Assembly (NCBI GenBank): GCA_016871575.1
Contig: VHCW01000001.1
Span: 1-35,730, forward strand
From: Verrucomicrobiota bacterium
Lineage (GTDB): Bacteria; Verrucomicrobiota; Verrucomicrobiia; Palsa-1439
Direction of reading: 5' to 3'
DNA: 35,730 nucleotides
Part shown: positions 12,670 through 17,977 of the stretch, piece by piece
Layout: each line of letters opens with the position of its first letter
Numbering within the stretch: the stretch's first letter is position 1
Program-made: the position numbers and the translations under genes
The notes under the pieces: generated by a model
What the model was told of the DNA's origin: nothing
What the model saw: the letters and a program-made list of their open reading frames with translations, nothing else
The model's database searches: none

Positions 12670-15600
12670 TCAGGGTGTGATGTTCTTTTCGAAGGGGATA
12701 ACCACAGCGGCGGCTTCGCGCAATTTCTTGTCGCCGTCGGCGCGTTTGTCGGACACATCGGCGTAGCCGGCGAAGAAGAATTGCTGGATGCGTTCGTTGA
12801 TGTCCCAGCCGATGGTCCAGCCCTTGAACTTGTTAATGGCCAGACGGATCAACTCGCGCGCTTCCTCCATCGCCTTGACTTCGCTGGCCAGAGACGGTTT
12901 GAGCAGGTCGTTGGCCTCGGCAAACAGCGTGAGTTTCTTCTGGAGCTGATTGTCCATCTCGGCAACGGGGCCGCGATACACTTCCAGCGTCGAGGCAACC
13001 TTCAAATCCTGCGCAACCGCGTCCAGCGTGGAGCGCCAGAGGTCGAGGTTGATCTGCATATTCCGCTTCAACACGAGTTTCTCCGAGATGAGTTTGTCGA
13101 AGTAATCCTGTTGCGTGGTGAAGATGGACAACAATTGGTTGCGGGCAGTTTCGACTTTGTTCTGGGCTTCGTCGTTGCGCGCGTCGCGGGCGAGCGTTTT
13201 CAACTCGTCATTGATGCTTTGGATGTCGTTAATCAAGCGGACGCTTTCGCGGATGATGATCGCTTCCGGCGTCTGTGGCGTGTAGGCCTTGACCCGGTCA
13301 AGCGTGTCGGAGATGCGGGCATCGAACTGCTTGTCACGCAGCATCTCCAGCACTCTGCCTTGCATGGCGACCTGTTTGCTCTGCATGGCAGCCTGCTGGC
13401 CGCGTATCGCTTTGCTTGAGGAGGAATAGACCGGTGTGGCCGATGCCGATGCCATGCGTCCCAGCAAGTCCGTGCTGGCGGTGCTGGCGCGACCTTCGGC
13501 GGCGGCGACGACGATGTTGGTGTTGACCACCGTCATGGCGACAACATTGCTCTGAAGTTTCTGGCTGATGCCCAAGCCGCACAGGCCGCGTTCGAACCGG
13601 GCCTGCGGATCGTTGGGTGTCAGGCTGAGCAGCGCCGTGTACACAGGCATTGCCTCGGCGTATTGATTGAGCCGCAGCAGGCTCTGGGCGAACATGCGGT
13701 AGTATTTCGGTTCCAAGGCGAAAAACTCCGCGCCCTTTTTCAGGTAGGAGACAGCATTGGTGTAATTGCGGTTCAGATAATTGACTTCGCCGAGCGCAAA
13801 GTACAGTTCCTTCAGTTTGTCCCGCTCCAGCTTTTCCGGGTTGGGCGTCAACTGGAGGAATTTTCCGAAGAACGCGGCTGCCTCCACCAGTTTGTTGCTT
13901 TGCAGGCAGACTTCGCCGGCTTTCAGGTAACATTCCTCCGCCGGGACGGCCAGCTCGGTGGCCAGCGACGGGTTCAAGGCCAGCGCCTGGTCGAAGCGGT
14001 CAGCGGCCTCGACAAAATTCGTTTGTTGCTGGAACGCGGCGCCTTCCTCGGCGAGGACGAAGGAGCGGGCCAACTGGCCGAGGTTCTGGATCATGGCCAG
14101 ATTGTCTTTCGTGGTTGCCGTGGCTGCGTAGGGGCCTTGCAGGTCGCGAACCAGCCTGGCGGCCTCGGTGGCGTTGGAACGGACGTTCAATCGGGTGAGC
14201 GCGGTCAACATCTCAATGGCCTCTTTGTTCTCCAAGCGGGCGAGGTTTCGGTTCAGCGTCACTTTGCGGGCCGCATAGACGCTGGTTTTCGCGAACTGCG
14301 AAGCAAAGGCGCGGTAGGCCGCCAGCGCCTCGGCATATTGTCCCTCGCGATCCAGTCTGATTGCCTCCAACCACTGGGCATCGGCCAGTTGGTTTTGGGC
14401 TGCCGCAAACTCGGCCTCCAACGCCGCGGCTTGCGCCTTGAAATCCTCAAGGTTCGTGGCGCGCGGATAGGTGCCGATGATCTTTTTCATCATCGCCAAC
14501 GCCTCGGCCTTCTTGCCTTCCTTCAACAGCGGCTCCACCTTCGCCACGGCGGCCTCGGCCTGCGCATTGACGATCAATTGTTCCACGCCGCGCGCCACGC
14601 CCTCGAAATTCTTGAACGTCTCCGTGAGCATGTATTTCTTCTGCAACTCGCGCAGGATGAACTGGCTGCGGTCAAACTGTTTCTCCTCCGCCTGACGCCG
14701 CGCTTCCACCAACAACTCGCGCGCGATTCGCTCCCGCGCCCCCAGGTAAACGCTGCGCCCCATCTCCAGCGGCCGCAACACGGTCTGCGAATGCCACGGC
14801 GCCACAGCGCCGATGTCGCCGCCCTGCAAGATGCCCGTTTGATCTATCGAAAAGGTCATCTGGCCCGTGACGCCATAACTGTCCGGTCTCGCTGTCGCAA
14901 GGAATCCATCCGCGCCCTGCGCTTTCACCGTGAACAGATACCCCTCTGATCGTTCGACAAACTGCGCATTGGGCACGAACGGATTCGGCAGCGTCCGCAA
15001 TTGTTCCAACGACGCATAAGCGCTGCCGCCGCCCTCCAGCGGGAGGGCGCGCACGGCTTTCAGGTATTCCTGGACCACGGCGATTTCCTTCAACAAAAAC
15101 GCCGCCTGGTCCTCGTTGAGTTTGACTGCAGCCAGCGCCTTTGTTGCCGCCTGGCGTTCCTCCCGGTACTGCGTGTACCAGAACCCGCCAACGCTCATTG
15201 CCGCAACCCACAAGAATCCCAGGCCGATCCCCCACATCGCATACCGGCGGTCCCGCACAAATCCGCCACGTTGACGGATCAGCGAGAGGCTCATGAAACC
15301 GAATATGATTCCCAACAACCACCCGATCCCCAGCACCACCGGGCCAAACAACCCGAAAAAGAAACTCAGCATCGGCAAAATTCCCGCCCCGCGCGCCTGC
15401 GGTGATTGTGTGGGCGCCATGTACAGGTCGGCCGGCGCGAGCGGCGCCGCGTCAGCGTTGCGCGGCTGAATCAGTCCGCACCGTTTGCAGTTCGGCTCCG
15501 ATGCCAGGCGCGGCGCGCCACAGTGCGGACAGTGCTCTTGGCGGCTCAACTCTGTTCCCGCGCCGTCGCCGACGCGCGCCAGCGCCGTCGTCGCCGCCGG

Positions 15601-15885
15601 TTCTTCCAGAAACAGAATCGTCAATCCGCCCACTTGCACCACCGCCCGATGGCCGAGCACGAACCGTTGCACCGCCCGCCCGTCCACCGACAAGCCCTTC
15701 TGATCGCCAATATCCAAAACAGTCACCATCCCATTGCGCTGCTCGAAACGAACCTGATGCGGTCCGATCGTGTCGGCGTCCACTCGAACGTCGTTTTCTT
15801 CGGCGCTGCCGACAGTCAACGTCTCCACTTCGAGCACGACGACTTCGGCGTCAGCACCGTCTGGATTGAACACAAGCTTGGCCAT
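12670..15885 (-). CDS. Membrane protein with FHA domain, zinc ribbon and TPR-like repeats
   Basis: 1071 residues from the ATG at 15885; longer in-frame starts up to 16140 run into the palindrome and have no domain. Residues 1-95 look like an FHA fold (GSAEENDVRVDADTIGPHQVRF, then GLSVDGR). A zinc ribbon follows with Cys119, Cys122, Cys133 and Cys136, then a hydrophobic hairpin at about 172-205 of the DUF4190 kind and another membrane helix at 216-238. The remaining roughly 830 residues are helical with TPR-like units, for example WLEAIRLDREGQYAEALAAYRAF and LYFALGEVNYLNRNYTNAVSYLKKGAEFF. FHA domains bind phosphothreonine, so a Ser/Thr kinase partner would be expected, but none is encoded here. 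The topology suggests a cytoplasmic sensor head and a long extracytoplasmic TPR arm. It is divergent from the PaaX-like gene across a large palindrome, so it may be controlled by it. Confidence 0.8.
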   Translation of the reverse strand: MAKLVFNPDGADAEVVVLEVETLTVGSAEENDVRVDADTIGPHQVRFEQRNGMVTVLDIGDQKGLSVDGRAVQRFVLGHRAVVQVGGLTILFLEEPAATTALARVGDGAGTELSRQEHCPHCGAPRLASEPNCKRCGLIQPRNADAAPLAPADLYMAPTQSPQARGAGILPMLSFFFGLFGPVVLGIGWLLGIIFGFMSLSLIRQRGGFVRDRRYAMWGIGLGFLWVAAMSVGGFWYTQYREERQAATKALAAVKLNEDQAAFLLKEIAVVQEYLKAVRALPLEGGGSAYASLEQLRTLPNPFVPNAQFVERSEGYLFTVKAQGADGFLATARPDSYGVTGQMTFSIDQTGILQGGDIGAVAPWHSQTVLRPLEMGRSVYLGARERIARELLVEARRQAEEKQFDRSQFILRELQKKYMLTETFKNFEGVARGVEQLIVNAQAEAAVAKVEPLLKEGKKAEALAMMKKIIGTYPRATNLEDFKAQAAALEAEFAAAQNQLADAQWLEAIRLDREGQYAEALAAYRAFASQFAKTSVYAARKVTLNRNLARLENKEAIEMLTALTRLNVRSNATEAARLVRDLQGPYAATATTKDNLAMIQNLGQLARSFVLAEEGAAFQQQTNFVEAADRFDQALALNPSLATELAVPAEECYLKAGEVCLQSNKLVEAAAFFGKFLQLTPNPEKLERDKLKELYFALGEVNYLNRNYTNAVSYLKKGAEFFALEPKYYRMFAQSLLRLNQYAEAMPVYTALLSLTPNDPQARFERGLCGLGISQKLQSNVVAMTVVNTNIVVAAAEGRASTASTDLLGRMASASATPVYSSSSKAIRGQQAAMQSKQVAMQGRVLEMLRDKQFDARISDTLDRVKAYTPQTPEAIIIRESVRLINDIQSINDELKTLARDARNDEAQNKVETARNQLLSIFTTQQDYFDKLISEKLVLKRNMQINLDLWRSTLDAVAQDLKVASTLEVYRGPVAEMDNQLQKKLTLFAEANDLLKPSLASEVKAMEEARELIRLAINKFKGWTIGWDINERIQQFFFAGYADVSDKRADGDKKLREAAAVVIPFEKNITP

Positions 15886-16205
15886 GTGATGTTCCGCGGC
15901 AAAAGCAGGATACAGCCATCCTTGCAGGGATGTCAACCTGCTCACAAGCGATTTGACTGTTTGACGATCGCCGGTCTTCACAGAAACGTGTGGCAAGGAA
16001 TCATTCCCGCCGATGCGTCTCTTCGGTGAAAGGAACGAATGAAGTGTCGCCACCTCGTTCAGAGTCGGGCGAGGCAGGTACATTTCCCTCCAGTTGCGCG
16101 TGAGAGCCAGATATGCAAAAGTCATTCTATTTTGAAACATATGTTACAGAATAGAATGTCTTTTCTTCTGGTGTCTCCCTGCCGCTTTTGGTAGAAGATG
16201 CGCCT
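15886..16205. other. 320-bp divergent intergenic region between FHA gene and PaaX-like gene
   Basis: No convincing gene lies here; the FHA frame continues open toward 16140 but without a recognisable domain. The region is AT-richer around 16110-16175 and holds the 48-bp near-palindrome described separately. Within it AT-rich TATTCT/AGAATA elements lie symmetrically and could act as -10 boxes in both directions, but I could not assign a firm promoter. Confidence 0.6.
16117..16164. promoter_or_regulatory. 48-bp near-perfect palindrome, probable operator upstream of PaaX-like gene (copy A)
   Basis: Centred between 16140 and 16141 on CATATG. Comparing the left arm with the reverse complement of the right arm gives 21 matches of 24. 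The inner core is TGAAACATATGTTACA (16133-16148), with ATTCTATT and AATAGAAT arms outside it. It lies between the divergent FHA and PaaX-like genes, about 40 bp upstream of the regulator start. The bases 16118-16148 recur exactly at 16990-17020. Autoregulation by the PaaX-like protein is inferred. Confidence 0.75.
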
Positions 16206-16985
16206 GTGAGAATTCAATATGAACTGCTCTTGGAATGCTTTTTCTGGGGTTTGGAAACATTCTCGCGCCGTGATTGCGGCCTGATTCTGGCCGGTTGTCG
16301 GGAGACCGCCAGCGGACGACGAGTCGAGGAGTTGTTGGAACGGCTGCGCGACCAAGGCTTCATCGAACAACACGGACGCGGCGCAAACGCCTCCTTCACG
16401 ATCACCGACCTCGGGCGACAGCGCGTTCGGGTCGCCGATCCGAACGCGCACTGGAACCTTCCGTGGGACGGCAAGTGGCGCGTGTTCAGTTTCGATCTGC
16501 CTGTCATCCGCCGCAAAGACCGTCTTGTCTTGTGGCGCGCCCTGCGCGATCACAAACTCGGCTTGCTCCAGCGAAGTGTCTGGATATGGCCGCACGAAGT
16601 CGAGCCGTTGCTCAATGATGTGCTCGATGCCCACGGCATCCCCGAATGTTTTTGCGGCTTCGAAGCCGGCCGGTTGTTTCTTTGCGACCACGCTGAAGTC
16701 GTTGCCACGGCATGGAATTGGAAGGAAATATCCCATCAGCAGGACACCTATCTCCAGCATGATGTTCTTCGCCATCCCGTCTTGGCTCGCGCTGGCGACC
16801 TGACGGCGCTCGCCCGACTTGCCCGCATCGAACGCACCGCTTATCAATACGCCTTTTGTTTCGACCCGCTGTTGCCGCGCGAGCTTTGGCCCGCGCGCTA
16901 CCAAGGCCCTGACGTTGAGGAAACACATCGCAACTTCCGCTCCCGCCTTCTGCGCCGCCTTCGAGAACTCGCTTCCTCCGCCTGA
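16206..16985 (+). CDS. PaaX-like transcriptional regulator
   Basis: 259 residues from a GTG at 16206 preceded by AGAAG eight bases upstream. A TTG at 16188 is in frame but has no ribosome-binding site; there is no in-frame ATG near the start. The N-terminal 75 residues read as a winged helix with the wing around ERLRDQGFIEQHGRGANASFTITDLGRQRV. The central part, residues 88-165, matches the PaaX middle domain, which has a Cas2-like ferredoxin fold (KWRVFSFDLPVIRRKDRLVLWRAL, then LGLLQRSVWIWPHEVEPLL). The C-terminal part has PRELWPARYQGPDVEETHRNF. PaaX in Proteobacteria represses phenylacetate degradation and senses phenylacetyl-CoA, but no paa gene is present here, so the ligand and target differ. 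The gene is bracketed by two palindromes sharing a 31-bp direct repeat. Confidence 0.82.
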   Translation: MRIQYELLLECFFWGLETFSRRDCGLILAGCRETASGRRVEELLERLRDQGFIEQHGRGANASFTITDLGRQRVRVADPNAHWNLPWDGKWRVFSFDLPVIRRKDRLVLWRALRDHKLGLLQRSVWIWPHEVEPLLNDVLDAHGIPECFCGFEAGRLFLCDHAEVVATAWNWKEISHQQDTYLQHDVLRHPVLARAGDLTALARLARIERTAYQYAFCFDPLLPRELWPARYQGPDVEETHRNFRSRLLRRLRELASSA

Positions 16986-16988
16986 TCT

Positions 16989-17036
16989 GAAAGTCATTCT
17001 ATTTTGAAACATATGTTACAAACGAAAGTGACTTTC
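16989..17036. promoter_or_regulatory. Second large palindrome downstream of PaaX-like gene (copy B)
   Basis: It begins three bases after the PaaX-like stop codon and lies between two convergent genes. The left half, 16990-17020, is identical over 31 bp to copy A at 16118-16148. The right half differs from copy A but still completes a palindrome: GAAAGTCA at 16989-16996 pairs with TGACTTTC at 17029-17036, and the 16-bp core is the same. Bases 17023-17037 (cgaaagtgactttcg) can fold into a short hairpin by themselves, but no T-run follows. A site here is not upstream of any gene start, so looping with copy A, transcription blocking or a recombination footprint are the options. Confidence 0.7.
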
Positions 17037-17065: not shown

Positions 17066-17977
17066 TTACTGAATTCGTCGCGCCCGTTGCCGGCGAGCGG
17101 GCGGCGGGGGTTCGAGGGGGTCGAGTTTCATCTGTTTCAGTTCCGCTGCGACGCGCTCTGCCGCAACCTCACAATACTTCTTGGAGAGATCCGTGTGGAC
17201 GAAGTGACGGCCGGTTTGGGCGGCGACAGCGGCCACGGTGCCGGTGCCGCCGAACGGGTCGAGGACGGTGTTGCCTTTGTAGCTGTAAAATTTGATGAGA
17301 CGGTAGATCAGTTCTTCCGGAAACGGCGCGGGATGGCCTTCCTTGGCTTTCGGCGCGCCTTTGCCGCGCCGGGGCGGATAGAGGCTTTTCAGGAACGGTT
17401 GCCGCCCCATTGTTTCCGGGTGGATGTGCCAGAAACCGTCGGAGAACTTGATGAACTCTTTGCTGGTGATGTCGGCGTCGGCTTTGTTGCCGGGCAAGCT
17501 CCACGAGTCTTTGGAGAAGATGAGAACGTATTCCCAACTCGGAATGATGTGCGGGTTGCTGGGACGACGGAACGAACCCCACGCGGTGCGGCGACGCATC
17601 GTTTGTTTGTACCAGAGAATCTCGGTGCGCATGATGAGGCCCAGCCCGCGCAGTTGAGCGGCCATGTCGTAGTGGATCGGCTTGAAATCTTTGATGCTCG
17701 TCGGTGTGACGTTGAGCGCGAATCGTCCGCCGGGGACGAGGACGCGCTTCAGTTCCTTCCAGAACGGCATCAGCCACGCGAGATAGTCTTCGTATGGCAT
17801 CTTGTCGTGGTGGGCGTCGTAGTCGAGACCGACGTTGTACGGCGGGGAGGTGATGGCGAGATGCACACACTCATCGGGCATCGCTTGCAGGATCGCTTTC
17901 GCGTCGCCGCAAATGATTCGGTCCGTCCACCAATCGCCTTCGGTGGACAATGGAGGAAACGTGAGAACAGATTTCAT
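17066..17977 (-). CDS. Solitary beta-class DNA methyltransferase (N6-adenine or N4-cytosine)
   Basis: 303 residues from the ATG at 17977; the frame stays open to 19405 but that part is antisense to the oxidoreductase gene and was dropped. Motif IV TSPPYNVGLDYD is at residues 43-54 and motif I DPFGGTGT at 240-247. The order IV before I, with the variable region in between, defines the beta class. The SPPY catalytic tetrapeptide fits N4-cytosine methylation but is also seen in some adenine enzymes. Supporting segments are RVLVPGGRFALNV, SWEYVLIFSKDSW and HPAPFPEELIYRLIKFYS. No restriction endonuclease gene is adjacent: one neighbour is the PaaX-like gene (convergent) and the other a sugar oxidoreductase (divergent, 117 bp). 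It is probably an orphan methylase affecting gene regulation or protecting against restriction. Confidence 0.9.
   Translation of the reverse strand: MKSVLTFPPLSTEGDWWTDRIICGDAKAILQAMPDECVHLAITSPPYNVGLDYDAHHDKMPYEDYLAWLMPFWKELKRVLVPGGRFALNVTPTSIKDFKPIHYDMAAQLRGLGLIMRTEILWYKQTMRRRTAWGSFRRPSNPHIIPSWEYVLIFSKDSWSLPGNKADADITSKEFIKFSDGFWHIHPETMGRQPFLKSLYPPRRGKGAPKAKEGHPAPFPEELIYRLIKFYSYKGNTVLDPFGGTGTVAAVAAQTGRHFVHTDLSKKYCEVAAERVAAELKQMKLDPLEPPPPARRQRARRIQ

Follow-up and report, generated by a model that had tools for sequence, protein, structure and literature searches.

The stretch of DNA analyzed here (35,730 nucleotides from a Verrucomicrobiota bacterium, hereafter the window) contains a unit of ~0.9 kb in which a PaaX-like gene lies between two large palindromes. 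This unit is probably an element of a dispersing system similar to that formed by REP sequences and RAYT genes. Judged from their sequences, such palindrome-bounded PaaX-like cassettes and the solo copies of their palindromes look like mobile or self-spreading DNA of a kind not described before.

PaaX-like genes bracketed by palindromes

Features of the window locus are listed in Table 1. A preliminary description, made from the letters of the window, had reported an exact 31-bp direct repeat whose copies form the left halves of palindromes of roughly 48 bp with centers 872 bp apart, and all of this was reproduced (the palindromes measure ~46–48 bp; the center of palindrome A falls between positions 16140 and 16141 and that of palindrome B between 17012 and 17013). 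The right halves of A and B do differ, as it had stated, but they do not vary freely: over 46 bp, the whole of copy B is identical to a solo palindrome in reversed orientation (C61:9484–9529). Palindromes A and B and five solo copies on other contigs belong to one palindrome family, giving seven copies in the genome from which the window was taken (designated G000; 5.19 Mb, 257 contigs). An arm match of the grade of A is expected by chance in about 2e-5 palindromes in the window, and a match to the core pattern occurred in none of the shuffled versions of the window sequence. Also as described before, palindrome A occupies a divergent promoter region, and B, between convergent genes, is unfit as a normal promoter operator at this locus. 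Comparison with relatives showed that the DNA methyltransferase gene on the right is common to them, whereas the paaX region is not. No cas genes were present among the identified neighbors of the window gene, and no aromatic-acid catabolic genes were found beside it, its neighbors being the FHA/TPR and DNA methyltransferase genes.

Table 1. Features of the window locus and positions of the gene-free doublets in genome G249.
Feature	Position	Strand	Details
Left neighbor, FHA/TPR gene, outside the element, divergent from paaX	12670–15885	-	Pfam FHA/TPR and gene call
Palindrome A, upstream, 48 bp, left end of the element	16117–16164		21/24 arm pairs
31-bp direct repeat, first copy (left half and core of A)	16118–16148	+	Identical to 16990–17020
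PaaX-like gene, 259 aa, GTG start	16206–16985	+	PF20803 (E 2.8e-14), PF08223
Palindrome B, downstream, 48 bp, right end of the element, by the stop codon	16989–17036		19/24 arm pairs
31-bp direct repeat, second copy	16990–17020	+	4 bases past the stop codon (16983–16985)
Right neighbor, N6/N4 DNA methyltransferase gene, outside the element, convergent	17066–17977	-	PF01555 (E 1e-42)
G249 doublet, contig C72	L238:1155–1320		
G249 doublet, contig C34	L237:170–440		

Fourteen paralogs of the window gene were detected in G000, and TIGR02277 likewise gave 15 loci. A palindrome pair brackets all 15 of these genes, which occupy unrelated places in the genome, the pair at L071 being degenerate. Each locus has its own palindrome sequence, with cores such as ACAATTGT, ACGATCGT, ACATATGT and ATAATTAT; the upstream copy is located ~65–180 bp before the aligned start and the downstream copy usually 0–60 bp past the stop. 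At one locus (L066) the two ends are perfect 40-bp palindromes and identical to each other. The centers are 841–895 bp apart in G000 and 810–1054 bp apart over 45 loci. A family set of 52 homologous loci across Verrucomicrobiota was then compared with 16 control loci of canonical paaX, one from E. coli K-12 and 15 from a plasmid collection, by a score that combines joint palindromy and upstream/downstream similarity (maximum 80). The mean score was 61.1 for the family and 40.3 for the controls (Mann-Whitney p 3e-9), at which no bracketing was evident by this score; 47 of the 52 family loci, including 14 of the 15 in G000, exceeded the control maximum of 45. Among the five that did not, L111 is truncated by a contig end, and palindrome remnants are visible by eye at L071 and L129. 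A null built from mismatched pairs (mean 46) is conservative because real palindromes are mixed into it. Direct and inverted orientations of the two element ends showed no consistent difference.

The preliminary description had offered three ideas for the locus, and the one now favored is a movable cassette of regulator and palindromes, as all 15 paralogs are bracketed at unrelated sites and solo copies exist. Homologous loci that keep copy A alone, which it had named as contrary evidence, were not the pattern found across the loci. Another of its ideas, a looping repressor with its own gene inside the loop, agrees with the presence of two binding-site-like palindromes ~870 bp apart and with a spacing of 872 bp that is near 83 turns of 10.5 bp. 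However, the spacings have no helical phasing at 10.5 bp (Rayleigh p about 0.48 over the 45 loci and about 0.51 over the 15 loci of G000), downstream copies are found between convergent genes, and solo palindromes occur with no partner, all of which makes looping most improbable.

Locus and palindrome may change together. In genus g99, the PaaX-like locus was inherited in place in four genomes (L120, L123, L124 and L133), a point against the mobile-element reading, and at L133 both palindromes have shifted jointly to another sequence while the protein is still an ortholog (~60% identity). This is apparently a case of paired evolution of the protein and its site.

Pairing of the palindrome arms runs through the center (0.75, 1.00, 0.91 and 0.89 at positions 1–4), dips at position 9 and declines at 20–22 bp. 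Such a profile differs from that of a looped hairpin and would fit duplex DNA bound by a symmetric protein. In some types (L061, L070, L074, L122 and L128), a GG or CC step occupies the exact center, where pairing is 0.75 compared to 1.00 at the next position; such a step would give the palindrome a direction. An RNA or single-strand hairpin device, i.e., a terminator, an mRNA stabilizer or the hairpin substrate of a Cas2-like nuclease, was also considered. Cas2 proteins are nucleases, the copies are located at gene ends, and G.T mismatches slightly exceed A.C mismatches on the sense strand (91 vs 68), all of which would fit such a device. Nevertheless, pairing continues through the exact center, where a loop is expected, Rfam gave no match to an RNA family, and the window copies have no G+C-rich stem; this explanation is very improbable. 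Among solo copies, the same change was present on both arms in 11 cases, compared to 0.44 expected if the arms changed independently, an excess that is inflated by the shared ancestry of a few copies and is still large. Either the palindromes would be copied via a folded or one-arm template, or their arms would be corrected against each other.

Solo palindromes and gene-free doublets

Using all 30 end palindromes of G000 as queries, we recovered the element ends and identified at least 24 solo palindromes in this genome, which represent 9 of the 15 types and include five of the window type. This number is a lower bound, the first look having scored 40 of 81 candidates. We further searched 14 other genomes with one another's palindromes. 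Most of them hold additional scattered copies and, among the matches listed, these belong to each genome's own type. About 20 copies of the own type were detected in G249, and about ten or more in each of G241, G349 and G034, whereas in G036 and G155 the own palindrome was found only at element ends. The G000 types were missing from 37 of the 38 relatives searched, the exception being G034, in which the resident type is related to them. Thus, with copies falling on the own type and types absent from relatives, the palindrome type tracks its gene.

It could be argued that an unrelated transposase, of the host or of another element, disperses the palindromes and that the PaaX-like gene is cargo or encodes a repressor that parasitizes the repeats. 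An enzymatic role of the PaaX-like protein is indeed hypothetical, and the gene copies are fewer and older than the palindrome copies: within G000, identity to the window protein is at most 67%, suggesting that the gene copies are old and that the palindromes are more active than the whole element. On the other hand, in the genomes tested the palindrome type follows the resident PaaX-like gene and is missing wherever that gene is missing; the Cas2-type residues of the protein, described below, are invariant. We consider an unrelated transposase unlikely.

The location of solo copies in G000 was examined with a simple codon-usage gene caller written for this analysis. Twenty-one of the 24 solos are intergenic, compared to an intergenic background of 11.7%. 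These showed no enrichment at gene starts (10 of 21 within 150 bp, compared to 47% of random intergenic positions) and were enriched near gene stops (15 of 21 within 150 bp, compared to 38%). Four solos are located in convergent intergenic regions and three overlap genes. One of the latter lies in miaA, a conserved gene for a tRNA-modifying enzyme (L136:1784–2737; G000 C1:102233–103186), in which an in-frame 42-bp palindrome encodes residues PVGCCVTAITQHPT. Relative to 12 homologs, the palindrome adds 8–12 codons, a net gain with some replacement, and this extra length of the gene suggests that the palindrome entered a pre-existing gene. The rsmB gene with a solo has the same length as some of its homologs and no extra residues compared to those. 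At L140:2000–2070 (G000 C46), a solo and a predicted phosphatase-like gene overlap at the 3' end of the gene, and a neighboring gene lies 10 bp from this solo.

No target-site duplication was visible by eye in the flanks of elements and solos, nor did a clean empty site with such a duplication come to light. One solo (L146:2005–2049; G000 C31:14204–14248) is enclosed by the halves of a 14-bp inverted repeat (CCGCCAACCTTTCC ... GGAAAGGTTGGCGG), an arrangement resembling insertion into the loop of a hairpin. Terminator-like hairpins as insertion targets, hinted at by the flanks on C31, C61 and C117, were not significant overall (p 0.08 and 0.33 for the 24 solos with two boundary choices, and about 0.6 for the 15 elements).

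An additional arrangement was detected in G249, where two palindromes enclose a 62-bp non-coding spacer. Contig C72 carries this palindrome-spacer-palindrome unit, and contig C34, at an unrelated place, carries it in tandem. The two doublets have about 90% identity, and homology stops at the outer palindrome edges. The occurrence of the same doublet at two places suggests that two palindromes can bound a copied segment that contains no gene. In appearance the doublets are similar to REPIN/BIME units. We also considered the spacer as a product of internal deletion of an element; the interior of the element has no clear similarity to it.

These data bear on a further explanation, in which the PaaX-like protein is an autoregulated transcription factor, two operators bracket its gene, and the solos are operators of a regulon controlled in trans. 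In its favor, PaaX proteins act as repressors, palindrome symmetry extends through the center as in duplex operators, upstream and downstream copies co-vary between orthologs, and copy A is situated at a divergent promoter. However, solos are enriched toward stops and not toward starts, and four lie between convergent genes, whereas a regulon predicts the reverse; three solos overlap genes. Moreover, near-identity spans more than 40 bp, the G249 doublet recurs at another site together with its spacer, nearly all loci retain the downstream copy, and bracketing was not seen at canonical paaX loci. The regulon explanation is thus weakened by the doublet and by the placement of solos, and we regard it as rather unlikely. 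From the miaA case, the own-type copies, their absence in relatives and the G249 doublet, we infer that the palindromes have probably been mobile.

The PaaX/Cas2-like protein and its distribution

The window protein consists of a winged-helix N-terminus, a Cas2-like PaaX_M domain and a PaaX_C domain. Among 22 family proteins scanned, PaaX_M was present in all and PaaX_C in 21, and in profile scans Cas2 models matched only some members, weakly. A predicted model of the window protein (pLDDT 85, pTM 0.82) had E. coli PaaX (8a39) as its best PDB match. In this model the middle domain has a beta-alpha-beta-beta-alpha-beta topology and lies between the winged helix and C-terminal helices; a Foldseek match to Cas2 had an E-value of about 0.3. 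The window protein scored 41.4 bits against TIGR02277, compared to the equivalog cut-off of 264.55, which was passed by no G000 locus. A conserved HUH motif was absent from the family, H-hydrophobic-H being present in 1 of the 52 proteins.

Multiple residues (D97, R106, G119, L121, Q122 and S124) are invariant in all 52 family proteins, whereas none of the 16 canonical PaaX proteins, a set from other phyla, has D or Q at the positions of D97 and Q122. D97 directly follows the predicted strand 91–95, the first of the middle domain. In Cas2, the metal-binding Asp stands after the first strand, and we take D97 to occupy the position of this residue. The invariance of Cas2-type residues suggests selection on a putative active site. 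A role in DNA handling, kept open in the preliminary description because of the Cas2-like domain, gains indirect support from the Cas2-type residues, which canonical PaaX has lost and the whole family retains. Taken as a whole, the interpretation of the preliminary description is partly supported.

Members of the family were found in 26 of 388 genomes of the phylum and 16 of 199 genera. G000 has 15, compared to none in a relative of the same genus. In the phylogenetic tree, the G000 paralogs fall into several lineages and are interleaved with those of other families, their neighbors including genes from G002, G034 and G155; for example, L062 of G000 is sister to L106 of G155 with support of 100/98. 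This interleaving indicates that horizontal gain or much loss was involved. No family member was detected in the plasmids, phages and viral contigs searched; weak plasmid matches with distant members were actinobacterial and mostly annotated as PaaX regulators.

Proposed mechanism and comparison with known systems

We propose that a dimeric PaaX-like protein would bind its cognate palindrome as duplex DNA via the winged helix, a binding predicted from palindrome symmetry and the presence of this domain. The palindrome would then be copied or moved, either alone or as a pair with any DNA between the two copies, and this may be caused directly by the Cas2-like domain or occur with host repair and replication. 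The PaaX-like protein is accordingly a putative enzyme of movement, and catalysis by its Cas2-like domain is our hypothesis. A broader proposal, which we advance tentatively and place just short of an even chance, is that the protein itself serves a new class of mobile DNA as its recombinase or nuclease. It would then be a fusion of a winged helix with Cas2 that recognizes its own palindromes and moves or copies them and the intervening DNA, and it would be related both to Cas2 and to a family of regulators whose catalytic residues were lost later. Repression of its own gene via copy A may be an additional role of the protein.

In the literature searched, which excluded preprints and most subscription journals, we found no paper that links PaaX with Cas2 or with dispersed palindromes, nor any description of mobile or dispersing DNA based on a protein with the PaaX/Cas2 fold. 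If the proposal is true, genes routinely annotated as PaaX regulators are candidate recombinases, a second and independent REPtron-like system exists, and mobile DNA offers a route to tracing how Cas2 and PaaX repressors arose. The name PaaX regulator should not be transferred to these genes in Verrucomicrobiota. Both the gene and its 46-bp sites are short, and direct laboratory tests are therefore feasible.

Several known systems share features with this family. PaaX repressors of the phenylacetate operon (TIGR02277; 8a39) have the same domain order and fold. The present proteins differ from them in their bracketing palindromes, in a score far below the cut-off, in the invariance of D97, R106, Q122 and S124 (D and Q being absent in the 16 canonical proteins), and in that no aromatic-acid genes adjoin the window gene. 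CRISPR-associated Cas2 appears to have in common with them a Cas2-type domain with D just after strand 1, followed by R and G..Q.SV, but here this domain is fused to a winged helix and PaaX_C and the gene is set between dispersed palindromes. In MITEs and insertion sequences with terminal inverted repeats, too, a gene-bearing form is accompanied by short non-autonomous copies; however, each end here is a full palindrome and there is no DDE transposase.

The closest parallel involves REP sequences. RAYT genes are reported to have a REP on either side in every case and to be related to IS200/IS605 transposases (PMC2817692, PMC3733652). In a REPtron, as here, a gene lies between two palindromic repeats (15 of 15 loci in G000; 47 of 52 family loci above the controls), cognate repeats are dispersed and mostly extragenic (21 of 24 solos intergenic), and repeat doublets and paired arm changes occur (PMC2817692, PMC3733652). 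In contrast, the protein here is PaaX/Cas2-like and not an HUH tyrosine transposase of the IS200/IS605 type. REPs have a GT(A/G)G (GTAG) head, a GC-rich stem and 2–4 unpaired central bases, whereas the palindromes described here are ~40–46 bp long, pair through the center, vary in base composition and have no shared head that we could see, and each type comprises few copies, from 1 to about 20. Taking these similarities and differences together, the family most likely works like a REPtron, yet falls outside REPtron membership.
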